Assembly (NCBI GenBank): GCA_026770575.1
Contig: MU657175.1
Coordinates: forward strand, 214,807 to 258,279
Source of the DNA: Pelagophyceae sp. CCMP2097
Lineage: Eukaryota > Sar > Pelagophyceae
Direction: 5' to 3'
Length of the DNA stretch: 43,473 bases
The notes under the pieces are model-generated. The model was not told the DNA's origin and made no database searches. It worked only from the letters and a program-made list of their open reading frames with translations. The position numbers were made by a program, and so were the translations under genes. Shown one piece after another: positions 3,822 to 42,750 of the stretch (within the stretch, counting starts at the first letter, position 1; every line of letters starts with the position of its first letter).

Positions 3822-4133
3822 GTCATTATGCAAGCGCGACCCGTTTGCGGACCGCAAGGGCCTCTTTGAGCACCTGACGCCGCGCAATCTGTTTTTTAGT
3901 TCGTTGCACGCCCTTGCGTTCACTGCCGTTAAAAGCCGAGTCCAAACGCCGCCCGAAAGGCCCCTCGGAAAGAGCGCGTGACGTTAATGAGCGCTCGCCA
4001 CCTCGGAGAACGCTCGCCGCCACAGGGAGCGCTCCTCGCCCCGGCTGGAGCGCTCACCGCCACGGCAGGAGCTTCATGGCAGGAGCGCTCGCCTTCCAAC
4101 TCTCTCGACGTCTCCCGCCGACTTCTTCTTTAG

Positions 4134-14512: not shown

Positions 14513-17121
14513 TTAGGGCGAGCCGGCGGCCTTGGCGCTCGACTCCGATCTTCCGAGCGCGTCGAGGACCTCGTTGAACTTGGCGAGGATGGCCTCTTGG
14601 TACCTCCTAGCCCAGGCCGGAGCCGCGTCGCCGACCGACGTCGGCGCCGCCGACCCGCGGAGCGACGGCTGCGCCGTCGGGGCGAGCGACGGCCGCGATG
14701 TCGTCGGCACGCGCGTCGGTGACGCCGTCGTCGGCCCCGGCGTCGGCGCCGCCGTCGGCGCGAGCGTGGGATTCGGCGTGGGCTCCGTCGTCGGCGCGCG
14801 CGTCGCTGACGCCGTCGTCGGCCCCAGTGTCGGCGCTGCCGTCGGCTCGCGCGTCGGCGGCACCGTCGGCGCGAGCGTGGGATTCGGCGTGGGCTTCAGC
14901 GTCGGCTCGCGCGTCGGCGGCACGGTCGGCGCGAGCGTGGGATTCGGCGCTGGCTTCAGCGTCGGCGTGGTCGTCGGCGGCACGGTCGGCTCGCGCGTCG
15001 GCGGCATGGTCGGCGCGAGCGTGGGATTCGGATTGGGCTCCAGCGTCGGCGCGGTCGTCGGTGCGGTCGTTGGCAGCGTCGTGGGCCCCGGCGTCGGCAG
15101 CGCCCGGGCCGTCGGTGGCAGCGTGGGCTTCAGCGTCGGCATGGCCGTCGGGACCGTCGGGATCCTGTCGGGCACGGTGAACGTTGTAGAGTCCTGCCCG
15201 CCGAACTCGCCGCCGCTCGCGACCAGGACACCCTCGAGCTTGAGCTCGTAGCCACCCTCGCCGTAGGCGCAGCACATGCCGTCGCTGTAGGTGTCTTCAA
15301 CGGTAAAGGTGTAGTCCTCGCCCGCGCAGACGGTCGCCGAGAAGGTGTACGAGTAGTCCATGGCGGGCTCGGTGTAGTCGCCGCCCGTGACGTCGTCGAT
15401 GGTGCACGGCGACCCCGCAGACACGTGAGAGAGCTTCCACGACGTCTCCGCAGGGTAGTTGTCCGTCGTGAGCGTCAGCTTAAGCTCCTGGTCGCAGGGC
15501 CCGCAGCCCTCTGTCGGGGCCGGAGAAATCGACGGTTGCAGCGTCGGCCGCGTAGTCGTCGGCGCCGGTGAAGCAGTCGGCGCGGCACTGGGTGCGAGTA
15601 GGATGACGCAGGCCACGAACGCCTCGGCGTCCATGAAGCCGGCCCCGAGCGCGCCGCCTTGGTACTTGGCCGCGTTGAGCGAGTCCACGTCTCTCGCCGT
15701 CGAGTAGGCGCAGCCCAGGAGCTTTTCTTTGGAAGCGGCCGGGTCGGCCGACCACCCGAGCGCGAAGACACCGGCCACGTGCGGGCAGGCCATGGACGTG
15801 CCCGAGGCATAGCCGTACTCGTCCTTCGTCGTCGTCGAGAGGACGCTGACGCCCGGCGCGGCGATGTCGATCCAGGCGCCGTAGTTTGTAAAAGAAGCGG
15901 CGACACCGGAGTTGTCGACGGCAGCGACGCCGACTACGCCTTCATAAGCACCGGGGTTGTACTCGTCGTCGGAGCCGTCGTTGCCGGCCGCGAAGACGAC
16001 GATGCCGTTCTTCGAGTTGTAGTAGTCGATGGCCGCCTTTTCCGTCTGCGGCAACGGACCCGGCAACGTGTAACCCCACGAGTTGGACGAGATGCGCGCG
16101 CCATTGTTCGCGCCATAAATTAAAGCCTCGGCGAAGCCGCCCGTGGACGTCGTGCCGAAGCCGACGCTGATCATCAACTTGACACCGGGGCTGTCCGAAG
16201 TGCCGCCGGCGACGCCGGCGACGCCGACGCCGTTGTCCGTGTCCGCGGCAATCGTCCCCGCCGTGTGCGAGCCATGCCAGCCATCGCCCTGGAGGTCGCC
16301 GCCCGTGTCGTCAGCGTGGTTGTACCCATGACAATCATCAACGTAACCGTTGTCGTCGTCGTCGATGCCGTTGCCGCAAATCTCGAGCTCGTTGCGCCAG
16401 ATGTTGTTTTGGAAGTCCTCGTGCTCAAGGTCGATGCCGGTGTCGAGGACCTGGACGACGACGCTCGGCGAGCCGCGCTCGAGGTTCCACGCTTGGAAGA
16501 GGTTCATGGCGCCGTAGTGCGGCTGGTTGGTGAGCTCCGGGTCGTTGGACTGGATCGATGCCGACGGCTTGAGCTCGGGCTCCATGTACGCGACGTCGTC
16601 GGCGGCCTCGGAGGCTGTCCCAGCAAAGCTCTTCATCGCGGCGACGGCCAGCGCCTCCGTGTCGCACTGGGCCGCGAACCAGAGGTGCAGCCCCGCCGCG
16701 AGCTGGTCCACCTCGTGCTTGCCGGCGTGCCGGAAGAGCCGCTTCGTGCCGGCGCACCCAAGCGAGGCGCCGACGGCCACGGCGCGCTGCGCCCGGCGGC
16801 CTTCGTCGTCCTACGGGCGCTGAGTTGCCGCGTGGGGTATTGGCTTATAGGGTATGGGGCCCCATATTGGGTCCCGGCAACTCAGACGTGGCGCTCCGCA
16901 CGGTGAACGGGCGAAACGCATCATTGCAAATGTCGCCAAGGGCGGCGGCTCCGACTCACATGTGCGAGCTGTGGGCGCGTGGCGTCGAGCTTGAAGAGCA
17001 CGCGCCTGGTGACGCTCTCGGCGGCCGTATCGGACTCGAGCGCCGACAAGTCGACGATTGCCGCAGAGGCCGGGCCGAGGAGGAGCTGCGCGAGCAGCAG
17101 CGCCGAGATGGAAGAGCCCAT
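14513..17121 (-). CDS. Secreted subtilisin-like serine protease (S8) with P-T-rich tail
   Basis: Exon 1 is 17121-16960 and exon 2 is 16810-14513; the phase-0 intron is AT|GTGAGT...GTAG; 819 residues. Residues 1-21 are a signal peptide (SISALLLAQLLLGPASA). A propeptide follows (RRVLFKLDATRPQLAH, DDEGRRAQR). The S8 domain has Asp177 (VLDTGID), His233 (WHGSHTAGT), oxyanion Asn331 (FAAGNDG) and Ser393 (GTSMACPHVAG). An acidic Ca-binding-like loop (GIDDDDNGYVDD) is also present. A C-terminal beta domain (TTDNYPAETSW, SDGMCCAYGEGGYELKLEG) is of a type common in secreted stramenopile proteins. About 200 residues of (P/A)T(L/P)xPT repeats follow, probably O-glycosylated and wall- or matrix-associated, then a short helix. 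It is likely an active secreted endopeptidase. The ATG is chosen because it opens the signal peptide. Confidence 0.93.
16811..16959 (-). repeat. Subtilase intron carrying a 66-bp inverted-repeat insert
   Basis: Within this 149-nt intron, CTGAGTTGCCG (16820-16830) and CGGCAACTCAG (16875-16885) are perfect 11-bp inverted ends. They surround a TATGGGGCCCCATATTGGG core of the dispersed family seen at 1304-1735. The layout resembles a small TIR element forming or enlarging an intron. Confidence 0.65.
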
Positions 17122-22275: not shown

Positions 22276-25200
22276 TTACGTCTTAGGCGGCCTAAACGGC
22301 GCCGCGTGCGCCGCGCGGCCGCCGGAGCGCGCCGGCGGCGCGAGCGGGAAGACCTGAGTGGTCCTTGAAGGTGCCCAGTTCCGGCTGTCGTCTGCAAGCG
22401 CCGATCGCAAGTCCCTCTCGCGATTAAGCCTCTCTTCCGCCTCGCGCTCCAGGCGCTGCGCCGTCGAACGCGCGAGCATTGCGGCGCGGCGCTTCGCCGC
22501 GTCGGCCTCGCGCTGGGTGGCGGCGAAGCGCCGGTCGTCATCCGCAGAACGCCTTAAGGCTTCGTCGTCGCTCCTGCGCAACCGCGACGCCGAGTGCCGG
22601 TCCGCCCGCCTTTTCGCCTCGTCGGCGAAACGCTGGGCCTCTGCCGCGCGCCTTTCTGCGTCTGCCTGGCGCTGCGCTTCCGCGCCGGCGTCGCGAAGTC
22701 CCGCGAGTCTCCGCCGTCGCGCATCTTCCTCCTCCAGCCTCCGCGCAGCGTCATCCGCGGCGTCCAGCCGCCTTCGCCGAGCCGCTCGGCGACGCGCGTC
22801 CAAAGCCAAAGCTTCGGCGTCTAAAGAAGCCTGACGTTTTTTTTGGAGCTCGTCTTCGGTCATTGTCTTGGCCGCATCGGTGAGCCGCAAAGCGACGTCC
22901 GCCGCTTTTCTCGCTTTGCCCGCAGCTCTAAAACGCTTCGCCGCGTCCTCCGCGCGCAAACGGTCCGCCTCGGCCTGGCGTCTTTTGCGCTCCTCCTCGG
23001 CTAGACGTAACCGTTCAGCCTCTGCCGCTTTACGCCTCGCCTCTTCCGCCGCCGCCGCTGCTTTGCGCTTCGCGGCGTCCTCCGAAAGGCGCTTCGCGCG
23101 GTCTGCGGCCTCGTTTGCTTCCCGTAAAGCGTCGACCTCTGCCTTTTTTCGCCGCTTCTCCTCGTCGGCGTTTGCGCGAGAGCCCTTTGCCTCTTTTCGA
23201 TCCGCTGAAACCGCCGCCTTTTCTGCATTGCTCTTATCCACCAAGCGCGCCGGGTTGTGCCGCAGCTGCACTATTAATTGCAGGCTGCCCTGAGCGAGTG
23301 GGTACCATGCCGTCCTTACACGTTGGTCCTCGATTTTTGTCAAGTCGACGACGCAGTCTCCCACAGGAGTCTTATCGCCCTCCAAGACGCATTGCAGCTT
23401 CCGGCCCGGCTGCAGCATCGGCAGTGCCCAGTGCTCCTTCCAGACTAAAGTTCGAGAGGGTTTGGACTCAAAGGGCTGCCCATCGAAGTCGAACTTCACA
23501 AGCAAGTCCTTCTTCACCGCGAGGCCTTTGCCGCGTACCAGCGCGACTCGCATTTCGTTTGGCTCCAAGTGGGCGAACTTGTTGGCGTCGTTTGCGTGAA
23601 AAGGGTCGTACTCTTGATCTGAAGCGAACGGGTCGTGATCTCGACTGTAGAAATGCTGCAACACCTACAACGCAACGTCACGCCTCCGAAGGAACCGCTC
23701 GACCGCTGCAAAGGTCCGTTTGAGAGGGCCGGCTCGAAAGGAGGGCTGCCCGTGTATCGGGGCCGTTTCGAATTGACCGACGGGGCCTTGCCATCGGGGT
23801 TGGCTCCTCGGGGCCTTTTACAGAGGCTGTACGTTCCCATCGTCGTCGCTCGGCGTCGGCCGTCCGGGCGCGAAATCCGTCGGGAGGGGCCGTTTCGAGG
23901 GGCCGGTCCGGCGTCGAGAAGGACCGCTGCCGTCTGCTGTGACCCGGGTCCGGGCCGGCCACATTCGAGAGTCCGGGCCGTCGACAAGGGATCTTCCAGA
24001 GGGACCCTCCAGAGGGGCCGTGAAGAAGGGCCGTTTCGAAGGACCTCGCATTCCGGGCTGTCCGGCTGTCTCGAGGGGTCCTTTCCAGAGGGCCCGTAGA
24101 CCGTCCAGAGGCGTCGTCGAGAGGATCACTGCCCGGTCCGCGTCTGCCTCATTCGAGAGGGCCCGCCCGTTTCAAAAGGACATTGCAGAGGGCCTTTTCG
24201 AGACAGGGCCCGTCTCCGTTCGAGGGCCGTCTCGATCGACTTTCGAGAGTGGCCGTTTCAAGGAGCCGTGATAAGGTTCCGTGACGAGGCCCCGCAGCGA
24301 GGCCCAGCGGGAAGGTCCCGTGGCAAGGTTCCTGTGTGACTATGTCCTTGTGACAAGGTTCCTACGACAACGTTCCCATGACAAGATTCCTGTGATTTTG
24401 TGGCAAGGCCCCGTGGCAAAGGCCCGTGGCAGGGTTCCGTGCAAGAACCCCGCGACAAAAAAACTGTGACACGGTGGAGACAGAGGTCCCCGTGGCAAGG
24501 TCCCGAATACAAATTCCCGTAAAACGGTCCCGTAACAAAGAACCTTGGACGAGGTCCCCGCGACAAGGCTCCGCGACAAGGACCCTGGCAAGGCCCCGTG
24601 GCAAAGGCCCATGGCAAGAATGCGCGACAACAACCCCTGTGCGACGGTCTCGACGGACACGGTCCCCGCGACAAGATCTCTGTGTGACACGGTCCGAGTG
24701 AAAAGGTCCTGTGACAAAAAGTCCCTGTGACTTCGGTCCCTGTGGTGAAAAGGTCCCAGAACGAGGTCCCGTGGCAAGGTACCAAGACAAGGTCCCCGTT
24801 ACATGGTTTCCACGACACGGTCTGTATGGCAGGGTCCCTGTGACGAGGTCCCGTGATACGGCCCCGTGACAAAGACCTTGGACAAGGCCCTGCGACAAAG
24901 CCCTGCGAGGAGGTCCCGTGACAAGGTCCCTGTGTGACAAAGGCTTTGTGACAAGGTCCCTATGACAACGTTCCTGTGACTTTGTGACAAGGCCCCGTGA
25001 TAGGGTTCCGTGCAAGAACCCCGTGACAAGAAACCTGTGACACGGTCCAAGTGACAAAGGCTCATGATTAAATTCCCCGTGACAAGTCCCTGCGACAAGG
25101 TTCCTGTGGAGACGACGTCCCCGTGACGAGGTTCCTGTAACACGGAGGTCTCCGAGACAAGGTCTCCATGGCAAGTTTCCGTAAAACGGTCCCGCGACAA

Positions 25201-28200
25201 GGACCTTGGACGAGGTCCCTGTGACAAGGCTCCGCAACAACAAGGCTTCGCGACAAGGACCGCGAGGAGGCCCCGTCGCGAGGTCCCTGTGACAAAGCCC
25301 GCGACAAGGTCCCAATCGGGGTCCTCATGACAAGGTTCCCGTAGCAAGATTTTTGCGGCAAGGCCCCTGTGACAAGGTTCCGTGACGGGGTCACTGTGAC
25401 GAGACCCTGGCCCTGTGACGAGGCCCCATGGCAAGGTCCCTGTGAGACAAAGTCACTGAGACAAGGTCACTGTGAGACAAGGTCCCTAAGACAAGATCTG
25501 TGTGACAAGGTCCCCGTGACAAGGTCCCCGTGACATTCCCGTGACATCGTCTCTGGAACAAGGTCCTTGTGACAAGGTCCCTATGACAAAGTCCCCGGGC
25601 CCGCGGCCTGTGACAAGGTCCTCCGACAAAGTCTCTGTGACAAGGTCCCCATGACGAGGTCCCTATGACGAGGTCCTTATGATAAGGTTGTTGTGGCGAG
25701 GCCCTTGTCACAAGAACCGTGCGACGGCACGGTCGCTGTGGCCAGGTATTTGGCAAGATTCCTGTGACGAGGTCGCTGTGACCCTGTGTGACGAGCCCCT
25801 CCGAGGCCCCCCCTCGAAGGCTCCTGGGCACTCTGAGGCTGCGGAGGATGCGGAGGCTGCGGAGGACGAATTGGAGCTGCAAAAAGGAAGTCGCAATTCC
25901 GAGTTTCCCCGACGGACGCGGCCCACGCGCGAGTTCAATCTCTCCTTGGCTGCCTTCCAAGTCGTACCACTTGCGCGAAATTGAATGCGCCTCGAGCGCT
26001 TCCAAGTCGACGGTCAAGGCGCCCATGGTGTCCGACGCAGATAACGAGTCGTGATCGTAGCACTCTACGGAAAGCAGAGGTAAAGGCTTGCCTTGCACTT
26101 TTGCCACCGGGCATTCAAACTCCTGCCTCCATACCGGATCCGTCGTCTTCGCCTTGACAGCCGACTTGAATTTAAACGCCGTCCCGAGGACGGCGAGTTT
26201 GCAATAGGGGTCGGAAGTGCCGCCCGAAGTGAAAACGTGAGAGTCGCAAATCTTCAGTTCTCGACCTTGAGATAAACCAATCCGGAGAAGGTTCGGCTGC
26301 TTCGTCGAATCGTCGACCGCAAAGGGCGCATACTTGAGAGCCGGGTTGTGCTTCCATTGCGAAATCACCTCGATGCACCCACCCTCTGAAAGCTTGTACC
26401 ATTGCCGTGTCCACCTCGCCTTCAGCAACGACCCCAAGTCGACGTCGACGCTGCCGATGGAGTCGTTTTTGAGAGCGTCGACGTCTTCGACTTTTATGGC
26501 GAGCGTGGGGTGTTTCCCGTCCGTCGCGGGCGAACACGCCCAAATAAACTGCTCTTGAAAGACCGGATCCAAAGATGTGATCGTCTTCGTCTTCCTCGAG
26601 ATGCGCGAAGAGGACAGCGCGACGGTGCACCGAGCGTCGGACGACGGCTTGGAGAGTAAATTTGCGTCTTTCGCAGGCAAGTCTAAAGCTCGGACGATGG
26701 CCACTCTGAGCTCGTTCGGCTCCTCTTTCAAAGAGTCGTCCTCTTGCCGAAACGGCGCGTAGTCCAGGTTCGGGTCGAACCGCCACTGGAGAACGAGCTC
26801 GACGTCTCCGGTTGTAGAGAGGGAATACCACTTTTTCGAAACTTTGCCGTCCAGCAACGCTTCCAAAGGCACGTCAACAAAGCCCATCGCGTCCGCCTGC
26901 GAGACGGCGTCGTAGTCCAAACATTCAATGCGGAGCACCGGGGCGGCGAGCCAGTCCGGGCCTCTGGATAATTCGACGTCAAAAATCTCTTTGTACACCG
27001 GTTCCAGCGTCTTCGACTTATGAGTAGACTTTGCAGACCACGTTGCCACGCTCAACTTGAAAAACGGGTCCGAGGACCCGCCTTGCGAGACGAGGTTCTT
27101 GTCCGCAATTTCTAAACTCCGAGCTCGAAAAAGCCCGATTCGCAGCTGATTGGGCTCTTGCCCCGCAAACTTCGAATCGTCCACAAACGGATCAAAACAT
27201 AAAGCCGGCTCGTGGCCCCACTGCAATATTAACTCCACGTAGCCTGAAACTTGTTGACCCTGGGTGGATTTCAATAGGTACCACTTCCGGACGACTTTAT
27301 GATCCGCGAGAGTCGCAATGTCGACTTCGAACTCGCCCATGGATTCATAACCCGTCATATCAGCATCTTCCACAAAACACCGAAGCTTCAAGTTGTCCAT
27401 CGGTGATAACGCTTTGGCAAACTGCTCCCGCCAAACCGGCTGAAGCGTCTTCTGCACTGCTCGAGAGTGGAAACCGGGCTGCCCCGTCAGCTCGAACCTG
27501 ACCCGAGGATCGGAAGAACCGCCCTTTGACAATACGTTCTTGTCCTTGATGGCCAAGCCGCGCGCTTGAAAAAGCGCGATCCTCAATTCAGTCGGTTCTT
27601 TCCCTTTATGCGTGTCGGCCTCGTGATGAAACCGTTGAAACGGGTCGTAATCCAAATCCGGGTTGAACCTCCACTGCAAAACCAACTCCACCTCGCCCTC
27701 GTCGAAAGAATGCCACTTCTTGTGCACTTTTCGAGTTTCGAAGAGAGCCTCAAGAGAAATCTGAATCGAGCCCATCTGATCTGCGGATGAGAAAGAGTCG
27801 TAATCCTCGCAAAGCACGGACAGTATCGGCATGGCCATTTCTGACGGGCCGCGCGGTAGAGCGAAGTCAAAAGTCTCCTTCCAGACGGGATCGAGAGTAT
27901 GCTTCTGCACGGAAGACGCCTTGGCAACCCCGCCCACTGAAAACGTCATCCGCGGGTCCGAAGACCCTCCGGACGAAACGAGGTTCTTGTCCGCTACGGG
28001 CAAACCGCGACCGCGGAAGAGGCCGATCCGCAACTCGTTTGGCGGCTTTTCTTTTGAAACTTCCTCGGCAAAGGGATCAAACGACTCGACTGGGTTGAAC
28101 CACCACTGCAGCGCGACTTGCACGTGGCCCGTCTCGAGAGCGTACCACTTCCGTGCCGCTTTCCGCGACTTGCCAAACGGGGCGAGATCAATAGTAAAGT

Positions 28201-31200
28201 CGCCCATGGCGTCCGCGCCCGACAAAGAGTCGACGTCCTCGCAAACGCACTTTAATGAAGCTTCGCCCTGCGGTGAAAACGGCATCACAAATTGTTCGTG
28301 CCAGATCGGGTCGAGGCATTTGGAAATGGTATGCGACTTCAATTCCGGTAATCCCGTCGCTAAAAAACGCATGCGCGGGTCGGAGGACCCGCCTTTGGAG
28401 AGCAAATTTTGGTCGCGGATCGCGAGGCCCAAACCGCGAACTAACGCGATTCGTAATTCGTTTGGAAGTTCGTTGGGATGATCGTCGACGGCCCCCTGAA
28501 ACGGGTCAAAATCCTTCAACGGATTGTACCGCCAGTGCAGCACCAGCTCCAGAGCCCCCGCCTCTTCGCCCAACGGCAGCCATAAGCGTTTGATTTTTTT
28601 ATCCGCTAAAGTGGAGAGATCGACTTCACATTTCCCCATCAAATCCGCAGCTGAAAGCGCATCGACATCCTCACAAACACAGTCCAAGACCATCTCCATG
28701 GGCCCGCGCGGAACGTCCAAGATAAAAATCTCCTTCCAGATGGGTTCGAGAGTCAGTTTCTGTGCCGTCGACACCGCTTTGAAAGACGTGTGCCGCACCG
28801 AGAATGCCACGCGGGGGTCGGAAGATCCTCCTTTCGAGAGTAAATTGTGGTCCATGATCTTGAGCCCGGCCGCCTGAAATAAGCCGATTCGGAGCTCGTT
28901 GGGTTCTGAATCACAGGCAACGTCATTTTCAAAAGGCGTGAACGCTCTGGATGGGTTATGCCGCCAGTCCACCACGACTTCAATCTCCCCGGAAACGTTC
29001 TGAGACCCTCCGATGTCGGCGAGGAGCGTGAGCCACAGTTTGACGGGCGTCTTCTTTCCGTTGAACAGTTCTTGGATATCTAAAACACGACGACCCATGA
29101 AATCAGCAGATGACACCGCATCGACGTCCTCGCACAGAACTACAAGCTTCGGCGTCGGAGAACCGTCTGGCCTTGCCGCGGATAAAGGGAGCGTGAAAAG
29201 CTCTTTCCAAACTGGGTCCAAAGTTTGAGAGATTGTTTTCGTCTTCCTCTTCAAACTGCCCTTGCCTTGTATAGACAGCGTCACCCTCGGATCGGAAGAC
29301 CCACCCTTGGTCAGCAAGTTCTTGTCTTTTATCGCTAAATTGCGGCCTCTGCAAACGGCGACTCGCAGCTCGTTGCGTTCTTCGTTCGGGTACTCGTCCG
29401 GTTCCGGAAATGGGTCGTAATCGAGCGTCGCATCGTACCACCACTGCAAAACCAGCTCGATGGAACCGGAGACGTTGGTTGTTTTGTCCAACTCGGAGTT
29501 TGCGGCGAGGTCGTACCATTGAGTCGAAACCGATTGGCCGTCCAGCTCGGCCAATGGAACCTCAAAGCTCCCCATGAAATCAGCACCGCTGACCGAGTCG
29601 ACGTCCTCGCAGACGCATCTGAGTTTCAAGGCGGAGCGGGCGGCGCCGGGCGCGCCCTCGGCGCATTCTAAAGAGAACGTCTCTCTCCACGACGGTTCTA
29701 AAGTCTTGTGTTTGACAGTCGATTTCAAAACCACGGCCTCGGCCGACGTCGCCGGCAGGATCTCGAATTTCATGCGCGGGTCTGAGGAGCCACCCTCCGA
29801 GACGAGGTTCTTATCTTTCACAGCAAGGCCTCGCCCGCGCCCCAACCCAATCCTCAAAGCATTGCGCTTCTTACCGAAAGTGCCGTCGCCGTCTTGAAAG
29901 GGCGAAAAGTCCAACGCGGCGTTGTAGCGCCAGCATACTATTAATTCGACGGCGCCCGTGACGTTTGTCGTCTTCTCGCCGTCCTTTGTTACCAAAGGGA
30001 ACCAGATCCCTCGCGGTTTTGAAACGTCCAAAAAGTCGCAGAGCTTCACAACAACAGAGCCCATAAAGTCGCGCTGTGTGACTTCGTCCCAGTCTTCCAC
30101 GATGACTTGCAGCGTCTCCTCGTCACCGGAAAACGGTTGAACAAACACCTCTTTCCACACAGGATTCAGCGACTTTTTCAAAACCGTCGACTCGAACTTC
30201 AAATCGCCGGCGACGAAGCGGACGACGGGGTCCGACGAACCGCCTTTTGAGACGAGGTTTTTGTCTTTTACAGCGAGGTCGCGACCCTGAACCAAAGCGA
30301 CGCACAATTCGTTCGGTTTCTTCCCCGCCGGCGCCACGCTGCCGCCGTCAAACGGTGAGAAAGATAACGCAGGATTGAAGCGCCATTGGAAGACCAATTC
30401 GACTTCTCCGGAAATATTCGAAGACTTTTCATTTGCCTCTAGAGTATGCCACTGACGATGCACCGAGCGATCCTTCCTCAAAGGCTCCAGCTCGATCAAC
30501 ACGCGGCCCATAAAGTCCGCCGAAGTGACTTCGTCGACGTCTTCTAGGACGACTTCCAGCTTTGGCGCTTCCGGGCCGGCGGAAAACGGCAGTTGAAAAA
30601 TCTCGCACCATCGCGGCTCGAGCGTCTTGTACTTGACAGTCGAGACGCCTTTGAAATCCGTGCCCGGCACGCTCACCGTCGCGCGCGGGTCTGAACTGCC
30701 ACCTAACACACGCCAGTGAAGATGGTGTCATATTTTCATGTCATTTGAACATTCCTTGGGTTGGTGCCCCCTTGGATCAAGTGGATTCGTACCCTTCGAA
30801 AAGAGATTCTTGTCCTTGATCGCCAAGCCTTTCGCCTGAACGATCGCCACCCGCAACTCGTTGGGCTCTTCAACACCGTCGTCTGCCGCGTCGCCGACGA
30901 AGGGGTCGAAATCTAAAGCGGGAGAGTACCTATTGAATTGCGTCGCGGCCGAGACGGTCCCTTAGGACATTTGACCGTCGCTCGAGAAGGTCCCCTGAGA
31001 TGGCCCCCGGCCTGTTCAACGACCCAGGGTCATTCGTCCCTCGAACGTGCCGAGACAATGACCCTCGAGACAGTCCCGAAAAGGTCCGTTCAACGACCCA
31101 GGGTCCTTGGAGACGCTCCCTCATACGGGCCGAGACAATGGCCCAAAGGGATGGTCCTTTCAGACTGGGCTATCCCGCAAACGAGGTCCATGAAAAGGTA

Positions 31201-34200
31201 AATCGATATGGCTCCTCTCGAGAGCCCGAGGCGGTCCCGCGAGACGGTTCTTCCTCCGGCCCGCTCAACGCAGCCCCTTGGAGGTGCTCCCTCGTACGGG
31301 CAAAAAAAATACCCAAAGGGGCGGTCCTTGGAGACGGGGCCTCGTCCCTCTACGAGGTCCGTGAAAACGTCCCTCTCCAGTGACTCTCGAGGGCGGCCCT
31401 TCTGGGCTCTCCCTCAAAGGCCCCTTGCCATTCGACGGCCCCAAGAAGGCGGTCCTTTGAGACTGGCCCGCGTACGGTCCTTCGAGACTGTGGGCGCTCC
31501 CTTGAAGGTCCCTCGAGACGGTACATTCAACGGCCCCGCGAAGCGTTTCTTCGAGACTGGCCCTCGGTCCTTTGAGACTCTCCCGAGGAGGCCCTCGGGG
31601 CGGTCCTTCGAGACAGTCCTTCGAGACAGTCCATCAACGGTCCCTCGTACGGGCCATGAATGGTCCCTCGAGGCGGCCCTTGGAGACGGTCCTTCGAGGC
31701 TGGCCCTCGGAGGTCCCTCGGGACGGTCCTCGTGCGGTCCCTCCTCGTGCGGTCCATCGAACGGTCTTTCGGGGCTTTTTTTTGAGACTGTAAAGGTTTT
31801 TTCTCGGGGCGGTCCTTTGAGACTGCCCCTAAAAGCGTCGCTCGGACGACCCGTGACAAGGCCCCGAGAAGGCTGCCCGTGGAAGACTGGCCCGTGAAAC
31901 GGCCCCTCTATACGGTTTTGCGGGAGGGACCCCGTCTCGAGGGCCCCTCCCGAGGGTCCTTGTTGACGGCCCCGAGGCGAGGCGCGGCGGGAGGCCCTTG
32001 GCCGGCGGCGGGGCCGCCAAAGCTCAAAGCAGCGACCCTGCCGTCGTGGAGCTCTCAGAGAGCGCCTTTCCAGGAGCTGTCGTAGAGCGCCTTTCCGGGA
32101 TGTGTTGTGCCCCGCCGTCAAGCCTTTCGAGGCGAATTTCAAAGGCCGGAGGTCCGAAAGAAGCTTCTCGAGCAGCGAGGGGCTCTTGGAACGCTCTCCG
32201 TCCTTCGCACGGGCCATCGCACAGCTCCTTGACCAGCCCCGACTCGTTGCACGCTTGCACGGATCCTCGCGCGGTCCCTCGTACGACCCCTTGAGAGGCC
32301 TCATTCACAAGCCCTTGCAAGGCCTCTTGTGAAGGCCCCTCGTATAGGGTCCTTGCACGGTCCCTTCAAGGCCCCTCGAAAAGGCCCCTCGCGCGGTCTC
32401 TGGTAAAGGCCCCTTGGGCCCGTGTTTCTGAAAGGTCCTCCGATGGGCCTGCCTGGAGGCAAGGCTCCCCTTGGAAAGACGGATTCTCGCAAGGTGCCCT
32501 CGCACACGCCCCGAGGAGGCCAGGGGCCCTTGCAAGGCGCCTCGCGCGGTCCCTCGCACGGTCTTCTCAAGGCGCCTCGTCTCCCCCGCGCCTCTGCGGC
32601 CTCTTCGAGGGCTCCAAAGTTCGGTCCTTTGGGCGGGCATTGAAGCCCTTGCAAGCCCTCCGCACGGGCCCTCGCGAGGCCCCTCGAAAAGGGCCTTGCG
32701 CACGGGAGGCCTCCGGTTCCAAGACGCCTTGCGTACATCCCTCGAATCTCACGAGCCCGTGCGAGGCTGTCCTGGACGCGCAAAGCCCTTTGACAGAACG
32801 AGCGCAGGGGCGCGCACGGGTCCAGCCGTACGGACCAAGAATCGATCTGGGCTCGTGGGAACCCAGATCGGACTCGAGACGGCCCCTCTACGGACACTCG
32901 AGACGACCCGAGACGGCCCCACGAACGCGGCCGCGGCGGCGATCCAGAGCGAGGCTCGAGCGCCACGCAAGGGATCGAAGACATCGAGGCCCGTCTCGAT
33001 GACCGCTTCGAGCCCGTCGGAGGCGTCGTCGGAGGCCGTCTGGAAGACCATCCAAAGGACCGTCTCAAAGGTTGTCGAGAGGGCCTTTTCGCGAGGGCCG
33101 TCTCAAGGACCGTTTCAAGGGCCGTCTTGAGGACCGTCTTGAGGATCGTCTCAAGGTCGTTTTAAGACCGTCTCGAAGGCCGTCTAGAGGACCGTCTCGA
33201 GAGCCGTCTCGAAGACCGTCTCGAAGGCCGTCTCGAGAGTCGTCTCGAAGACCGTCTCGAGGGTCGTTTCGAGGGCGTTTTCGAGGACCGTCTCGAGGAC
33301 CGTTTGGAGACTGTTTGAAGGGCCGTCTCGAGGACGGTTTGAAACCGTCTCGAGGGCCGTCCAGAGACCGTCTTGTAGAACGACCATGAAGAGGGGCAGA
33401 ATGAGAGCCGCAGAGGCCCCTCTGCCATCGCAAAGGTCCGAGTTTGCCACTCCAAAGGAACCTTTGGGAGGCCCTGGTCCCTTGTCACTCGGCGCGCGCG
33501 TGCCACCTTTGAGAGGCCAGAGGGGCCGTCGAGCGGAAAATTTGAGCGGAACTGTTTCGAGGGGCCGTGTACCCTCGAGGGGCCGTTTCGAAGAGCCGTC
33601 TCGTGTTTGTCAAGAAGTGGCCTTCTTGCGGGACCGTTTCAAGGGCCGTCTCGAGGGCGAGAGACCTTTGAGAGGACCGCTTCGCGGGACCATACAGAGG
33701 ATCAAGGGCCGTCGAGCGGACCCGTTTCGAGGGGCCGTCCAGTGACCAGAGGGGCTGTCGGGCGGGTCCATCTCTTCGGGGCCGTCCAGAGGGCCCGTGA
33801 CGGAGCAAGGCGCAGAGGTTGTTCGGTCTGTCGCCTTGGAGAGGGACCGCCTGTCTCGATCGACCGTTTCGAGGGACCCCCCAGACGGACCGTCTCGAGG
33901 GACCGGCCATCGAGGCCGTCTCGAGGCGTCGTCCAGAAAGGTGATCCGGCGAGATCGTCTCGAGGGACCGTCTCGCGGGATCGTCCTGAGAGGCCATCGA
34001 GGCGGGGCGGCAGTCCACCCGTCTCGAATGACAGTCGAGCGGGCCCGTCTCGAGGCGCCGCCCAGAGGGGCCTTTGTAGCAGGCAGAGGGCCCGGGTGGC
34101 GGGCGTGCCACTTTTGAGAGGGGCCGTGTCTAAGGAACCTCAAGAGAGACCGTGGCGAAGGACCCTCAAGGGAGACCGTGTTGAAGGACCCTCCAGATGG

Positions 34201-37200
34201 CTCGTTCAGAGGGATTCTCTCAAGCGGCCGCGGGCGGCCCACGAAAGAAGATGCGCGGGCCGCAGAGAGTCGAGGGCCATCCAAAAAGGACCCTGGACGA
34301 AGGTCGTCTTGCGGGACCGCCTCGCGGGACCGTTTCGAGGAGCCGTATCGTGAGTCTTCGTCAAAATCGACCTTGGAGCGGGCCTGTCTCGAGGGGCCGT
34401 CCAGGCGTGCGTCTCGAGGGGCCGTCCAGAGGGCCCGTCGAGGGGGGCCGTCTCAAGGGCCCGTCTCAAGGGCCCTTCTTAAGGACCCGTTCAAGAGGGC
34501 CCGTCCCGAGGGCCTGTCCAGAAGGGCCGTCGGGCGGGCCCGTTCCGAGCCGCCGTCTCGAGGGCCCGTCTCGAGGGCCCGTCTCGAGGGGCCTTCCAGA
34601 GGGGCCGTCTCGAGAAACCATCGAGCGGACCCGTTCCGAGCCGCCGTCAAGAGTGACCTTTCTCGAGGGACCTTTCTCGAGGCCCCGGTCCTTCTGCCTT
34701 GACACGGTGCGGTTCGGCCGCTCTCAAGCGGGGCCTTGCAGCGGGTTTGTCCAAAGGCAGCGTATAGCGGGACAGTTTCCGGGTTTGCCGCCAAGGTCGC
34801 GCGCCGCTCTTTACCACCACTGCAGCCAGACCTCCAAGTCGCCAGTGACGTTTGCCGACTGACCCTCTTCCGTTTTTAGGGCGTGCCACTTACGAGTTGG
34901 AAGGCCGGAAAAGCCGTCTTCTAAAAGTAAATTCAATTCAATCGAACACATGCCCATGAAATCAGCCGCCGAAACGTCGTCGTAGTCCTCCACGACCAGG
35001 CGCAGGCGCGGCTTCGCCTTCGAGTCGCGTTTCAACGGCATTTGAAATATTGCATTCCAAACGGGCGTCAACGTCTTCCTCTTCACGTCAGTCTGACACG
35101 GCGGCGCCTCCCCACCGCCTTCAATCGAGAGACGCACAAACGGGTCGGAAGTGCCGCCCTTTGACAAAAGATTCTTGTCCTTGACCGCCAAGCCGCGGCC
35201 TTGAACGATTGCGATTCGTAATTCATTTGGCCGCTTTTCAGAATACTTTGGATCCAGCAACTCCTCAAACGGCGAAAAATCTAAAGCAGGGTTGTACCAC
35301 AGCTGCACGACGAGGTCCACCTAGGAGCGTGGTTTGCGGCGCCGAATGGGCAAGGTCCCTCTCGAAAAGGCCCCGAAGAGACGGTCCTTGTACACGGTTC
35401 CTCGAGACGCTGACCCTCTCTCGAAAATGCCCCCCCAGAAAGGCCCCTCTCGAACGCGGCCCCTCCCTCTTCTCGACGGCATTTCGGAACGGGCCATTCT
35501 GGACTCTGGGTGGCCCTCGGGGCGGTCTCGAGTGAGTCGATCTAGACCGCTCTCGAGACGGGTCATCTGGAAGGCCTCTCGAAGCGGGTCCTCAAAACGG
35601 GCCTTTGGAATGGCCCCTCTTTGTGCTTCTCGGGACGCCCTCCGACGAAGCGGGGCGGCGGCCATGCAAAGACGGGCCCGTAGGCAACGTCACTCTGGCC
35701 CTTGGAACGGGCCCGGAGAGACCCGGTCCCGGAGAGACCCGGTCCCGGAGAGACCCGGTCCCGGAGAGACCCGGTCCCGGAGAGACCCGGACCCAAAGAG
35801 ATGGTCCCTCTAAATGGTCTCTCGAGTGAGTCGATCGACAAGGTCCCTCGAGACGTCTTCACGGCACCTCGAAGACAGGGCGGTTGCCTCTGGACGGCCT
35901 CATCTTGATGGTCCATGGCCTCTCGAGACAGTCTATCGAGACAGTTTCTCTCGAGAAAGTCTTCTGGCCGGTCCTTATGCAAAGTCCCACGAGTCCCTCG
36001 GGACGCCTTTCTGGGCGGTGGCCTCCCGCGGACCGGGCGGCGGCAGAGGGGTGTCGAAACAGTCCCTTTTCGACGGCCCCTCTGGGCGGTCTCGACGGTC
36101 ACTCCTCGAAGCGGCCCCTTGTCGAATGCCCTTTGACACGCGGCCCCTCCAAAAACGTACCTCGCCGGCCACATTCGAAGACGACTCGCCGTCGTTGGAA
36201 GCCCGCGCGACCAACGAATGCCACGAGCGCTGTCGGGAAGTGAGCGTTGCGAGTTCTATCTGGAAAAGGCCCATGAAATCCGCAGCCGTGACCTCGTCCA
36301 CGTCTTCAATTAAAACTTGCAAAAGCGGCGGCTGCGAGTCCTCCGGGCCTCTGTCAAAAGGGAGAGTGAAGACTTCGGACCATCTTGGGTTTAAGGCCTT
36401 GAACTTGGTCGTGGAGGCGCATTTGGATTCCGTGCCGGAGATGGAAAACGTCGCGCGAGGGTCCGAAGACCCCCCCTTGCTCAACAAATTCTTGTCCTTG
36501 ACGGCCAAGTTGCGCGCCTGCGCCAGGCCGATGCGGAGCTCGTTTGGGGCCTTGTCCGGAAACGGGCTTTCTTCTAAAAACGGCTCGAAATCGAGAGACT
36601 CGTTGTAGCGCCAATAGACGACCAATTCCACTTCGCCGTCCACGTTCGACGATTCCGCCCCAGAGTCCGCCTGCAAAGAATGCCACGCGCGGCCGCGCTT
36701 CTTGTCTTTCCCGAAAGGTAAAAGTGGGATATCGAGACGCCCCATGAAATCGGATGAGGTGACCTCGTCCACGTCTTCTACAACAACAGACAATAAAGGC
36801 CCGTGCTGCCCAAATTCCACAGGGGCGTCGCCCTCGCGGTAGTCGCTGGCGCGGAAGGGGAGCTCGAACGTTTGTCTCCAACAAGGTGCTAAAGTCTTTT
36901 TGCATGTCTTCGAAGTCGCTTTTAAATCCTTCGTCCCCACCACGCTCAACCGCAGGCGCGGGTCCGACGACCCGAGACCCCAAAGTAAGGCCTTGTCCTT
37001 GACGGCGAGGTTGCGACCTTGGATTACAGCGACGCATAGTTCCTACGTGTCAGGGCACGCGTCAACAGGAGCAGGTGTATTCGGGTTGCTCAATCTGTGC
37101 CGCACCCAAAGGGTCGCGGGTTTGTCGAGCCTCGTCTTCTCGGGTTGGGTTCGGGCCACGGCCAAACCCGCGGGTCAACGGATCGGCCAAAACGCGCAAA

Positions 37201-40200
37201 CCCGGCAAACCCGACAGGCGGGTTGAAGGGCAAACCCGCCGCTACTCCTATCTCCGGCTCCTCGAGACGGCCCTTGGAGAGGGCTCCTGGAGACGACCCC
37301 TGGAGACGACCCTTGGAGACGGCCACTCGAAACGGCGCCTTGGGACGGCGCTTCGAGAAGGCCCCTCGAGACGGCTCCTTTTGACGGCCATTCGAAACGG
37401 CGCCTTATGACGACCCATCGAGACGGTGCCTCGAGACGAACCCTCGAAACGGCGCCTTGAGACGGCGCCTTGCGACGGCCATTCGAAACGGCGCCTTGAG
37501 ACGGCCCGTTGAGACGGTGCCTGGAGTTGACCCCTCGAAACGGTGCCTTTCGATGTCCATTCGAAACGACGCCTTGAGACGGCCCCTTGGGACGGCCCCT
37601 CGGGAAGGCTCCTCTCTCCGGCCCCTCGAGACGGCCCCTGGAGACGGCCCCTGGAGACGGCCCCTCGAAAAGGCCCCTCGAGACGCCCTTTCGATGGCCA
37701 CTCGAAACGGCGTCTTGAGACGGCCCTTCGAGAGGCTCGGAAGGTCTCTCGGATGGTCGCTTGGGAAGTCCCTTGGAGAGTTCCTTTGGACGGTTATTTT
37801 GACGGTCCCTCGACGGGCCCTCTGTGACAGCCGCTTTGATTGGCGGCCCCTCGATGGTCCCTCGGACGGTCACTCGGCTGCCGGTCCCTCGACTGTAGCC
37901 CCCTCTGCGACGTCCCTGGACGGGCCCTCGGACGGTCGCTCGGACGGTCCCTCGGAGTCGCTGCAGCGGGCGGCCCGGTCTCTAGCAAGGAAGCCTGGGT
38001 GGGGACTTGAGAGGGGTCTTGAAAAAGGCCTCGCAAGCGACCGCGCAGAGACCTCGCAAGTGGCCACAAAAGAGGCCTTGCAGGGGCCGTCCAGAGGGCT
38101 CTTCAAGGGCCCTTGAAAGAGGCCGCCCAAGAGGCCTTGTCAGTGACCGTACGGAGGTAACTGGCCGCGAAAGAGGCCTCGCAGGGGCCCGGACTGTCGA
38201 ACACCCGGTGGCGGTGGTATTTCGGGTTTTCAATTTGTTCCGCACACTCGAGTCGCGTGTCTGACGACCAAACCCGTCTTCAAAAGGTCGGGTTCGGGCC
38301 ACGGCCAGACCCGCGGGAAAACGGATCGGCCAAAACGCACAAACCCGGCAAACCCGACCCGCGGGTTGAAGGGCAAATCCGAACCCGTCCATGCTCCTGC
38401 GCATCAAGCCCAAGCTCTCTCGGCGTTTCTTTGGTGCAAAAGTGCGGGCCCACGCTCGCAGCGTCCGACGGCACACGCCCTCGGCGGCCCCCGGCGTCGG
38501 ACGCCTCTCGGGACCCTTGGAAACCCGTCAGCACTCACGTTCGCCTCCTTGTCCTTGAACTTGGCCTCTTCCACCTCCTCCGCCCAGGGGTCAAAGTCGT
38601 AGACCGGGTTGTAGGCCCACATCACGATCAAGTTGAGATCGCCGGTGACGTTTGAAGAGTTGTCTATTTCCGAGACCAATGGATGCCAAGCGCGTTTCCG
38701 TTTCTTGTCTAAAAAGTCCGCGAGCTCAAAGTCCACTTTCCCCATAAAGTCCGCCGCGGAGAGCGAGTCGACGTCCTCGCAGACGATGTCGAGGATTGGA
38801 GGCTTTTCGAACTTTGACGAATCGAGCGGAAAAGACCACTGCTCGCACCAGCAAGGATTCAAACTCTTCTCCCGTGTCTTGGACATCCACGGCTTCACGC
38901 CGACGTCTGTTGCCGCGGAAGTCGAGACGAGCTTAAAGGTGCAGCGCGGGTCACTCGAGCCGGCGCCGAAGAGGAGAGGTTTGTCTTTTATACTCAAATT
39001 TCGACCCTTGACGAGTGCGACTCGGAGTTCCTAAAACGACAAGTGAGACGAGAATAAAACGCTTCATGAGTCGAAAAGGGGCCTGGGAATCCGCCCGCCC
39101 GCTTCCCGGTGAATCAACCCTCACACCCGCTCCTGACGGCGCCTTTCGACGGCGCCTTTCGAGAGCACCTTTTGACCGTCGCTCGAGACGACCCTTCTCT
39201 GATCTTTGAGACGGCCCTTCAAGACAACCCCTCGAGACGGCCCCCTTCTTTCGCCGGCCAACGGAGACGGCCCCTCAAAAAGGCGCCTCGAGACGGCGCC
39301 TAGACAGTGCCACTACACGGCGCCTTCTCCGACCTTTGAGACGGCCCTTCAAGACAGCCCCTCGAGAAGGCTCCTCGAGATGGCCCCCTCTCGCTGGCCA
39401 CTGGAGACGGTCCCTCAAAATGGCGCCTCGAGACGGCCCTTTTCCGACCTCTGAGACGGCCCCTCGAGACGGCCCTTCAAGACAGCGCCTCGAGAAGGCT
39501 CCTCTCGCCGGCCCCTTGAGAGGGCCCTTCGAGACGTGGCCCTCGAAGCGCCTCGAAGGGCCGTCTCAAGATACCGTTTCGAGGGGCCGTCTCGTGTGGC
39601 CGTCTAAAGGAGCCGCGTCGATGGGCCGCCTCGAGGGGCCGTCTCGAGGGGCCAGCGAGAGGGCCCTTCTCGAAGGGTCGGCGAGAGGCGCCGTGTCGAG
39701 TTGCCTTCTCGAAAGGGCTGTCTCGACGGATCGTCCGTCGTATCGAGGCGCCGTCTCGAATGGCCGTCCTGAGAGGCCATTTTGAATGCCCGTCTAAAGG
39801 AGCCGCCTCGATGGGCCGTCTCCAAGGGCCGTCTCGAGTGGCCGTCTAAAGAATCCGCTTCGAGGGGCTGTCTCGCGAGGCTGTCTCGAGACGCCGTCTC
39901 GAATGGCCGTCTCGAATGGCCGTCTCGAGTGGCCATCTCGAATGGCCGTCTAAAGGAGCCGTCTCGAGGGGCCGTCTCGAATGGCCGTCTCGTGTGGCCG
40001 TCTAAAGGAGCCGCTTCGGGGGCCCGCCTCGAAGGGCGATTAAAAGGGGCCGTCTCGAGTGGCCGGTTCGAGGGGTGGTCTAAAGGGGCCGTCTCAAAGG
40101 GCCGTCTCGATGTGCCTCGTCGAGGGGCCAGCGACAGGGGCCTTCTCGAAGGGCCCTTCGAGAGTGCCATCTTGAAGGACCGACGAGAGGCGCCGTCTTG

Positions 40201-42750
40201 AGTTGCCGTCTCCCCGTCCAAAGATACCGTTTCAAGGGGCCCTCTCGAGTGATCGGCTCGAGGGGCCGTCTCGAATGGCCGTCGAAAGGAGCCGTCTCGA
40301 GGGGCCGTCTCAAAGGGCAGTCTCGTGTAGCCGGTTCGAGGGCTAGTCTAAAGGAGCCGTCTCGGAGGGCCGTCTCGACATGCCTCGTCTTTGGGGCCCG
40401 CGAGAGGGGCGGTCGTTTGCCCAATACTATATTGCCCCTCTCGCACGAAACAAAAAGCACTCACGTTCGGCGGTTTCTCAGGAAACGCGTCAACCTCGGC
40501 CGCCCAAGGATCGTAGTCCAGATCCGCATTGTATCGCCACTGCAGCGAGAGCTGCAGCTCGCCGTGCACGTTCGAAGAAAGTTTGCCGTTTGGATCCGGC
40601 ATGAGAGGAAACCATTCGCTCCGAACTCGAGGCCGCTTCACCGTCAAAGCCTCGAGTGCCACCTCCACGAGCCCCATAAAGTCGGCGCCGCTCATTCCGT
40701 CGACGTCCTCGCAGACGCACCTCAAAACCGGCGGCGTCCACGCTTTCGTGGCCGCTAAATCGTCGACTGCGGGTAATCGCAGCTCAACGCTGTAAACTTC
40801 TCGCCAAACCGGTTCCAGCGTCTTGCTCCGCGTCGTCGACTGCCATTTCATCAGCTTGGCCTGGGCCTTTGCGAGAGTAGTATCGCCGTCTTTTTGTCCA
40901 CCGAGAATCTCGAAAGAGACTCGAGGGTCGGAAGTCCCGCCTTTTGACATGAGATTCTTGTCCTTGATCGCCAAATCTCGCCCTCGGAACAGCGCGATTC
41001 GCAGCTCGTTGGGCGGCGCCTTGATCGCGACATCGTCTTTTAAATGAAAAGGGGCGAAATCGAGATCCCTATTATATCTCCATTGAGCAACCACCAACAA
41101 CTGCCCCCGAGACCCGTCGCCACCGGCACGCTGCGCTCGCTCTCCGAGAGGGTGCCAGGCTCTCACGGCTTTGTGCTTTGCTTCTAAAAGAGCTTTTAAA
41201 GGGATTACAACAAGTCCTAAAAAGTCGTCGCTCCCGATCAAATCATGATCAAACACCGCCAGCTCCACCGACTGCGACCCGTCCGCCGAGACGCCAAAGT
41301 TCATCGAAGCGTTCCAGACCGGGGCGAGAGTCTTGTATAAAGTTTTCGTTTTTTGGGCTTTTAATTCCGTCCCCGCAATCTTCACAACGACGTACGGATC
41401 CGAACTTTTCCCCACGGAAGAAAACGGCACCGCCGAATCCATGGCCAGCAAACCGCGCGCTCTTGCAACCGCGATTCTCACTTCGTTTGGCGCTTTTAAA
41501 AGTTCGTCGGTTGTCAAGTCGAAATCTTCAAAGAATTCTCGGTCTTCCTTCTCATCTCGATCCGCGACGTACACGAGTTTTAAAGCCAGCTGCACCTGCC
41601 CGCGGTCCGCGGCGGCGTTGTTCTTAGAGTCGTGGAGGGGGTACCACGTCGATGGTGCGGCGCCGTCTTTTGCGAGGGCGGGTAACGAAGCAGGATCAAC
41701 CGTCACTTTGCCTAAAAAGTCCGAACCAACCAAGTCCTTGTCCTCCACAACAACTGATAAAGTCTCTGCATTCGTCGAGGCTTTTGCACCTTTTTTCACG
41801 GGCCGTTTTAGCGGAAACTCGAAAACTTCCATAAATGTGGGCTCGAGGCACTTCTCAACAACCTTCGTTCTAAACACTTCACCGCTCATCTCCAGCTTCA
41901 CGAAAGGGTCCGACGACCCGACGCCGTAAAGCACTGGCTTGTCCGCGATGATTAAAGCTCTTGCGCGGACGACTGCCACGAGTAGAGTGTTGGGCTCTTT
42001 CCCCTCCGACGCTTCATCAGAAACGTCGTTCACGAACCAGCGCGCAGCGTCTGCCGCCGCGGCGGCGTCTGTGTAAGCGTCGCCCGTTCCAGCTCTTAGA
42101 GCGAACCGGACTTCCACCTCACCCGCAGCGGCGCCGCCCCCCGCGTTCCTTAATTGCAACCACTGCGGCACCCCACCGCCGTCGGGCCCAAAATCTGGTT
42201 TTTCCGCGAAATGCTTGCCGAGCTCGACGTCTGCCAAGCCTAAAGCTTTGGGTTTTCCGGTGCCGACTCCCAACAGTCCTGCGTTCCAATCCCAAACTTC
42301 GAACCGGAGATAAGGCAAAGGCGCCGGCACGCCGTCATAAACGTACAGAGCGCCGGAAAAGCGCGGCGCTAACGTTTTTTTTTGGACGGAAGTCTTGTGC
42401 TTCTGGTGATGAGGCTTTGACATATCAGCACCATCTAGCTGCACTAAACGCACAGTAACGAACGGATCTGAAGTACCCGTCATATCCGCCGCCGCCAAAC
42501 CGCGCGCGCCCAAAACCTCGACCTGCAACCGGCCAGTGGCCCACTCTTTACCCGAAGTGCCTGCCGGCGCCGGTGCCTTTGCAGCCGGCGCCGCTGGTGC
42601 CGCCGCTGGTGCCTTTGCAGCTGGCGCTGCCGTTGCCGCCGCCTCTGGCGCCGCCGTTTGCGCCGGCGCCGCCGTCTCCTCGTCGGCCTTGTTGCCGCCG
42701 TCGTCGGCCTTCTTGCCGCCGCCAAACGCCGACGTCATAGACTTGAACAT
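22276..42750 (-). CDS. Giant tandem C2-domain protein: 20 C2 domains plus C-terminal coiled coil
   Basis: Seven exons: 42750-40465, 39030-38539, 37042-36161, 35320-34815, 30929-30793, 30702-25931 and 23664-22276. They total 10,464 nt and 3,487 residues, with matching phases throughout. The start at 42750 (MFKSMTSAFGGGKK) precedes an A/P-rich linker. Twenty C2 units of about 155 residues follow, each PNELRIxLxRGRxLAIKDKN, LLSKGGSSDPR, xEDVDxxSxADFMG, then LQWRYNPxLDxDPF. Most keep the loop-1 and loop-3 aspartates that bind Ca2+ in C2 domains. Unit 20 has lost them. Exon 7 ends in about 300 residues of Arg/Ala/Glu coil (EEERKRRQAEADRLRAEDAA). There is no transmembrane segment. By family, C2 domains dock to membranes or partners in a Ca2+-dependent way; a membrane-tethering scaffold is inference. 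Known multi-C2 families (ferlins, MCTPs, E-Syts) have far fewer. Confidence 0.92.
23665..25930 (-). repeat. C2-gene intron 6: two different arrays, probable GC donor
   Basis: The acceptor GTTGTAG|GTGTTGCAG at 23664 is clear. The best in-frame donor is CTC|GCGCGT at 25930, giving GEIEL-VLQHFYSRDHDPF like other units' VELVLQWRFNPDLDYDPF. No GT donor fits phase 0. The plus strand has GTGACAAGGTCCC units (24270-25800) and GAGAGGGCCGTTTCGA units (23700-24260). The frame stays open into the array as far as 25391, so a read-through isoform is possible. Confidence 0.75.
30703..30792 (-). other. C2-gene intron 5: short 90-nt intron
   Basis: Donor AAGG|GTACGA, acceptor GTGTTAG|GT, phase 1; it joins IKDKNLFSKG to GSSDPRATVSVPG inside the Ca-binding loop of unit 9. 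It is the only intron of the gene without a repeat array. Confidence 0.9.
30930..34814 (-). repeat. C2-gene intron 4: 3.9-kb array with central orientation switch
   Basis: Donor TGGTG|GTAAAG, acceptor TTCAATAG|GTAC, phase 2; splicing restores LQWWYSPALDFDPF. On the plus strand 30950-32960 has CCTCGAGACGGTCC units and 33010-34690 has GGGCCGTCTCGAGGGACC units. The two arms of about 1.7-2.0 kb are in opposite orientation, meeting near 32,990. Long open frames here are products of composition. Confidence 0.9.
35321..36160 (-). repeat. C2-gene intron 3: repeat array
   Basis: Donor GAG|GTACGT, acceptor CTCCTAG|GTG, phase 0; splicing joins SSNVAGE to VDLVVQLWYNPALDF. The array units are CTCGAGAC-GTC/GGCC types, all in one orientation, with no switch. 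It includes the 16-bp tandem block at 35712-35793. Confidence 0.9.
35712..35793 (+). repeat. 16-bp perfect tandem repeat, about five copies
   Basis: The unit is AGACCCGGTCCCGGAG. Copies are identical, unlike the degenerate array around them, so this block expanded recently. The unit is itself nearly palindromic (CCGGTCCCGG/GGGACCGG). Confidence 0.95.
37078..37247 (+). repeat. Direct repeat bracketing intron 2 array, copy 1
   Basis: GGTTCGGGCCACGGCCAAAC, then ACGGATCGGCCAAAACGC and AAACCCGGCAAACCCGAC-GCGGGTTGAAGGGCAAA match the copy at 38217-38389. They are about 85% identical over the 3' two thirds. Confidence 0.85.
38217..38389 (+). repeat. Direct repeat bracketing intron 2 array, copy 2
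   Basis: It begins CGGGTTTTCAATTTGTTCCG against CGGGTTGCTCAATCTGTGCC in copy 1 and ends in GGGTTGAAGGGCAAATCCG. Same orientation as copy 1, near the donor side of the intron. Confidence 0.85.
39031..40464 (-). repeat. C2-gene intron 1: repeat array with central orientation switch
   Basis: Donor AAC|GTGAGTGCT, acceptor TTTTAG|GAACTC, phase 0. On the plus strand, 39130-39545 is built of CCTCGAGACGGCCC units and 39550-40400 of the complementary GGGGCCGTCTCGAATGGCCG units. In the sense direction the donor half is CTCGAGACGG-type and the acceptor half CCGTCTCGAG-type, so the two halves can pair. Confidence 0.9.

Follow-up and report, generated by a model that had tools for sequence, protein, structure and literature searches.

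Gene structure and transcript

The 43,473-nt window analysed here (C12:214807-258279 of the 66-Mb, 638-contig assembly of Pelagophyceae sp. CCMP2097, an Arctic marine alga) contains a minus-strand gene for a large protein of 20 tandem C2 units, u01 to u20, along with several smaller frames that are described last. We rebuilt the gene from the raw sequence using minus-strand open frames and splice motifs. The rebuilt model runs from 42750 to 22276 and has seven exons, which encode 3,487 residues with no internal stops. Exon 1 (40465..42750) supplies the Met start, an Ala/Pro-rich N-terminus (residues 1-71) and u01-u04. Almost the entire u05 lies in exon 2 (38539..39030), almost all of u06 and most of u07 in exon 3 (36161..37042), and the end of u07 with most of u08 in exon 4 (34815..35320). 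The 137-bp exon 5 (30793..30929) holds the u08 linker and the start of u09. Exon 6 (25931..30702; 4,772 bp) carries the rest of u09, u10-u18 complete and most of u19, and exon 7 (22276..23664) ends the gene with the remainder of u19, a degenerate u20, a charged helical tail and the stop. The exon-end phases are 0,0,0,2,1,0, and the introns measure 1434, 1496, 840, 3885, 90 and 2266 bp. Five of the six introns have GT donors; the last, at exon 6 (window 25931), has a weak GC donor (exon end GAACTC, intron start gcgcgt) and is thus a GC-AG intron.

A JGI protein, P0104 (3,090 aa, from a 10,515-nt contig), has the same sequence as the splice model throughout residues 386-3468 (3,083 residues). 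It reads through the junctions after residues 762, 926 and 1220, spans those within residues 1389 and 1435, and crosses the one after residue 3025, where it uses the GC-AG junction as modelled. Because the corresponding genomic stretch is about 19 kb, the P0104 contig must be spliced, and its size relative to the genomic span suggests that it is a cDNA. Identity across all six junctions means that the gene is represented by one transcript, and from these sequences the protein appears to be the product of a single expressed gene. This agrees with an earlier note on the same DNA, which had proposed one gene of seven exons with matching phases; separate short transcripts, which would have spoken for several genes, are not what P0104 represents. 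The junctions of that proposal stand as modelled, while two details changed: the exon 6 donor is GC rather than GT, and P0104 ends in RGARGAV, seven residues that stand in for the model's final 19 and can be read in a different frame of the GC-rich sequence there (window 22276-22340). This different end could be an allele, a splice variant or a cDNA artefact, and the final residues are unsettled.

Several shorter C2 genes wrongly joined would be the simplest alternative, and the long, minisatellite-rich introns and the one non-GT donor are what such an artefact might look like. However, P0104 encodes the joined product identically over its 3,083 residues and six junctions, the exon phases match, and a relative described below (P0001) is collinear. 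Unless P0104 is itself chimeric, it rules out an over-joined model, and we regard such a joining artefact as very improbable. A homology search with exon 6 gave no near-identical match among the matches listed, most of them nameless, though the CCMP2097 proteins P0007 and P0033 were matched; among these matches no named model covered the full length. P0033 (M885DRAFT_506738) agrees at 100% with contig C5 of the assembly over its first 1,705 residues, as far as the fetched sequence reaches.

The intron minisatellite has a 13-bp unit (CTCGAGACGGCCC-like) that fills much of several introns (31592-40378) and also occurs outside the gene at 6785-7516. Forty copies of CTCGAGACGG are present in the window; 32 lie within the span of the C2 gene, one of these being exonic.

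The twenty C2 units

The units follow one another with a start-to-start spacing of 157 +/- 11 residues. In exon 1, u01-u04 occupy 41995-42537, 41491-41994, 41014-41490 and 40471-41013. In exon 6, u10-u18 occupy 29867-30316, 29378-29866, 28904-29377, 28466-28903, 28043-28465, 27596-28042, 27155-27595, 26720-27154 and 26297-26719, and the degenerate u20 lies at 23215-23562 in exon 7, all on the minus strand. A Pfam scan, which covered exons 1-4, 6 and 7, found 4, 1, 2, 1 and 11 PF00168 stretches in exons 1, 2, 3, 4 and 6, or 19 in all, with E-values of 2.8e-173 for exon 6 and 2.2e-64 for exon 1. Exon 7, including u20, had no Pfam match at E 0.01. Searching the spliced protein with a profile made from its own units yields 20, the count given in the earlier note; u20 is detected by this profile alone. 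In a genome scan, at least 19 of at least 122 C2 matches genome-wide fell in the window. The fold of u10-u13, predicted from alignment A2, is a C2 beta-sandwich with a predicted template modelling score (pTM) of 0.60. Scores above the Pfam gathering threshold together with this fold place the units in PF00168, u20 excepted, and the C2-scoring check set by the earlier note did not refute it. Exon 6 also matched Pfam MLVIN_C at 31.7 bits, the cut-off being 29.2, with no single stretch passing; we took this match as spurious.

A pattern search found a linker of the W-x-Y/F/H-N-P-x-L-D-F-x-P-F kind in 17 of the 20 units (u03-u19) and left u01, u02 and u20 unmatched. The u19 linker is a shorter variant, and the match in u12 ends early, with the sequence continuing to TPF. 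Among the core units, u04-u19, mean identity is 41.6%. Given this low identity and the mostly one-to-one correspondence with units of P0001, we rejected both a recent tandem amplification and an assembly artefact. A two-unit duplication period was not supported, as identity at lag 2 exceeded that at lag 1 by only 1.4 points across u04-u17 (shuffle p 0.18). The gap is wider in u07-u17 (47.2 at lag 2 and 43.4 at lag 1, p not computed), and it is absent in P0001.

Calcium sites and surface charge

Ligand columns were set by HMMER alignment of the units to the C2A domain of synaptotagmin-1 (Syt1), whose five loop-Asp columns coincide with those of the units. The earlier note had described the Ca2+-ligand aspartates as conserved, which is supported, 17 of 20 units having a complete five-Asp set. 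Unit u16 has four Asp and a Glu. Unit u01 keeps three ligands, and u20 has none and has lost both Ca2+ loops. Judged from these residues, 18 of the 20 units appear to have a canonical or near-canonical Ca2+ site, and u20 would be unable to bind Ca2+ canonically. Compared with Syt1 C2A, loop 1 has five extra residues, and in all 16 core units it carries two adjacent hydrophobic residues; in loop 3, 15 of the 16 have a hydrophobic residue at the second position past the second Asp. Net charge is negative in 16 of the 20 units and positive in four, and the tail carries +18.

The C-terminal tail

The charged helical region (22381..23232, minus strand) is predicted to form two helices, 121 and 159 residues long, with a 4-residue gap between them. 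In the exon 7 model (pTM 0.26), the predicted local distance difference test score is about 90 for the helices and about 30 for u20. The tail is rich in alanine and arginine, and ILVMFYW make up only about 11% of residues 3170-3460. No solved relative of exon 7 was found at E 0.01.

The earlier note had read this region as a coiled coil, and the periodicity is equivocal on this. Locally, heptads score 2.94, where shuffled sequences give 2.82 +/- 0.11, a value within about one standard deviation (SD), and the best window scores 4.4 against 4.68 +/- 0.49. At the heptad angle of 102.86 degrees, no residue set in the tail rises above the 95% shuffle level. Oligomerisation through the tail, which depended on the coiled coil, is consequently no more than a possibility. 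Conversely, opposite charges are paired well beyond expectation: acid-to-base pairs at i+4, i+3 and i+5 number 33, 32 and 28, against 17.4, 17.6 and 17.7 in shuffles (SD 3.2), and base-to-acid pairs at i+4 number 25 against 17.2. Single alpha-helix domains of the ER/K type have opposite-charge i/i+3 and i/i+4 pairs and are helical and stable as monomers. The tail resembles them in its i+3 and i+4 pairs and its few large hydrophobic residues, and differs in being rich in alanine and arginine and in having charge pairs raised at i+5 too. Counting against a single helix, the combined hydrophobic and Ala periodicity at 105 degrees reaches 0.775 against a 95% shuffle level of 0.700, and Ala alone exceeds that level at 97 and 105 degrees; these are 3 of 20 tests. 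Overall, a single charged helix looks more likely than a coiled coil, which may still be present given the weak Ala-inclusive periodicity. The short break between the two predicted helices makes a helical hairpin possible as well.

Comparison with known multi-C2 families

Several C2 domains within one large protein recall the ferlins (dysferlin, myoferlin and otoferlin), which are matched by profile A5. Ferlins are described with up to eight C2 domains, a C-terminal transmembrane (TM) segment and FerA/DysF domains (PMC12264198). In contrast, the Pfam scan gave no match to FerA, DysF or FerI domains at E 0.01, and no C-terminal TM segment was found, the six highest hydropathy windows all lying inside C2 units; the CCMP2097 protein differs from ferlins on both counts.

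Extended synaptotagmins (E-Syts, or FAM62) and tricalbins carry an SMP domain and an N-terminal TM segment. E-Syt2 C2A-C2B and E-Syt1 C2A match the CCMP2097 units by both sequence and predicted fold, yet the protein had no Pfam match to SMP in the exons scanned, and none of the six most hydrophobic windows precedes u02. It is unlike E-Syts in that neither SMP nor an N-terminal TM segment was found, and its array is more than twice as long. Nine C2 domains are reported for FAM62A2 (PMC1976326).

Tandem C2 domains are also shared with MCTPs, with an MCTP2 C2 domain among the fold matches and MCTP1 proteins among the weak homologues. The C-terminal two-TM region of MCTPs (PF08372) was found neither by the Pfam scan nor among the hydropathy windows. 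Plant MCTPs have three to four C2 domains and two TM regions (PMC12262843). Synaptotagmin-1, finally, shares the five loop aspartates of its C2A with the units but has two C2 domains rather than 20 and the shorter loop 1, and no N-terminal TM segment of the synaptotagmin kind was seen by hydropathy. Going by the defining features compared here, this is a C2 protein that appears to fall outside the ferlins, E-Syts, MCTPs and synaptotagmins.

The earlier note had also suggested more C2 domains than in known families, and the 20 here, against eight in ferlins and nine in FAM62A2, agree with this. Among characterised multi-C2 proteins for which the sources give numbers, counts stop at eight or nine, and no protein with more than nine C2 domains was seen in the literature searched, whose coverage left subscription papers largely outside. 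A 20-unit, C2-only protein with most of its Ca2+ sites apparently intact would be well suited to asking how domain number affects avidity and the cooperativity of Ca2+ binding.

Relatives and age of the array

In each of three homologue searches, scoring was confined to the candidates with the greatest word overlap, which numbered 7990, 2471 and 7995. Unit counts for the 106 homologues fetched come from the unit-based profile, which may split or merge domains; by this count P0104, from the same gene, has 18, and P0001 follows with 15, stopping within its own u15. P0006 (from Chrysophaeum taylorii), P0032 and P0105 (a eukprot protein) have 12 each, all others have at most 11, and none of the 106 has 20.

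P0001 is about 50 per cent identical to the CCMP2097 array, and its units retain the same order. The same-numbered unit is the best BLAST match for 14 of its 15 units (unit 07 tied with u05), unit 08 matching u09 best and u08 second; random assignment never gave more than six such matches in 200,000 trials. A tree joins 12 of the 15 to their same-numbered counterparts, with strong support for 10. The order shared across the 15 units of P0001 implies that the array is old. Order is kept in 5 of 7 units of P0002 by best match. In Aureococcus anophagefferens, P0108 best matches u02-u05 and P0003 matches from u06 on, with gaps; the two are annotated apart on contigs that both measure 88,101 bases, and the Aureococcus array seems to be annotated in pieces. 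The array end may vary too, since P0107 (ENA, 650 aa) continues for two C2 units beyond the one closest to u19, where the CCMP2097 gene has the degenerate u20.

Within the CCMP2097 genome, 20 further stretches picked from the C2 genome-scan matches all hold C2 pieces, 1-12 each, these counts being of pieces and not of checked gene models. Adjoining stretches sum to 14 pieces on C74 (L014-L015, 98000-117999) and 12 on C8 (L011-L012), and single stretches on C117 (L016) and C30 (L021) hold 12 each. Together with P0001, P0002, P0003, P0108 and P0006, these paralogues share the same kind of unit, which suggests that pelagophytes, the bloom alga Aureococcus included, have a family of C2 arrays that is so far uncharacterised. 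Unlike the CCMP2097 gene, several of the related arrays add precomputed Pfam accessions for LRR, ankyrin and WD40; P0032 is one that bears WD40-type accessions. A viral relative was considered on a single pattern match in viral_contigs and set aside as unconfirmed.

Proposed function

The gene, its spliced product, the C2 sequences and fold prediction, the ligand sets and the unit order conserved in a relative are shown by the sequence analysis. Membrane binding, tethering, the role of the tail and the cell process we infer from them. The reading we favour, at even odds, is that the protein is soluble and, switched by Ca2+, grips or tethers membranes through many sites at once. At resting Ca2+, charge would keep the mostly acidic units away from anionic membranes. 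A rise in Ca2+ would load many sites and let the hydrophobic loop 1 and loop 3 tips insert, and the loaded array could then bind anionic membrane with high avidity, either gripping one surface lengthwise or cross-linking a pair of them. The tail helix, positively charged and ~280 residues long, would probably act as a spacer or a Ca2+-independent anchor, and the likely role would be to tether or dock vesicles and membranes in response to Ca2+. The membrane zipper put forward in the earlier note is plausible. In a study of synaptotagmin, tandem but not single C2 domains cross-linked membranes in Ca2+ at ~9 nm spacing (PMC2726287), which serves as a precedent for the proposed Ca2+-switched array. 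For myoferlin, several C2 domains are described as building a composite membrane interface (PMC12264198). At low salinity, C2-annotated genes of CCMP2097 (PF00168, KOG1028), of which this gene may be one, were overexpressed according to PMC9133084.

Several points weigh against a Ca2+-switched gripper. Units u03, u12, u18 and u20 are net positive, and the charge-repulsion step would not be uniform. The relative orientation of neighbouring domains is not fixed by the u10-u13 model at its pTM of 0.60, and the tail fold comes from a single sequence at pTM 0.26, with no orthologous tail found among the homologues. Three P0001 units, 05, 07 and 15, fall apart from their same-numbered counterparts in the tree. 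C2 domains can also make protein-protein contacts.

Such contacts would be central if the array were a Ca2+-dependent protein scaffold or Ca2+ buffer with membrane binding secondary. A Munc13-1/RIM entry (2cjt) among the fold matches illustrates that C2 domains can bind proteins, and the LRR, ankyrin and WD40 accessions in related arrays would fit scaffolding. However, C2 domains that bind only proteins often lose their hydrophobic loop tips and ligand sets, and nearly all core units here keep both; we consider a scaffold or buffer unlikely. The alternative of a flat coat, with all loaded units on the same membrane as a long strap lying beneath the plasma membrane or coating a vesicle and no second membrane bridged, is in our view doubtful. 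The core units are alike in loop chemistry, the conserved linker (N-P-x-L-D-F-x-P-F-like, u03-u19) could fix orientation, and the four-unit pTM hints at some preferred arrangement. Against this, adjacent units may point their Ca2+ loops in different directions, and tandem synaptotagmin C2 domains cross-link two membranes (PMC2726287). We tentatively suggest a dedicated C2 rod, in which ~20 Ca2+-loading units would be regularly oriented by the linker motif to form a long strap or bridge for membranes, switched by Ca2+, on a charged helical spacer. This would be an ancient, length-conserved pelagophyte feature that organises membranes and has no characterised counterpart.

Other features of the window

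Tandem repeats of 126 bp (42 codons) at 9984-10854 look WD40-like by eye, with no Pfam match in the one frame scanned. On the minus strand at 2035-3983, a Kelch-repeat frame lies beside a BTB/POZ frame, and the two probably form one BTB-Kelch gene. A subtilase-family peptidase frame (PF00082, E 2.2e-45) occupies 14516-16810, and GTCGGCGCC-type repeats lie within its region at 14.6-15.1 kb.
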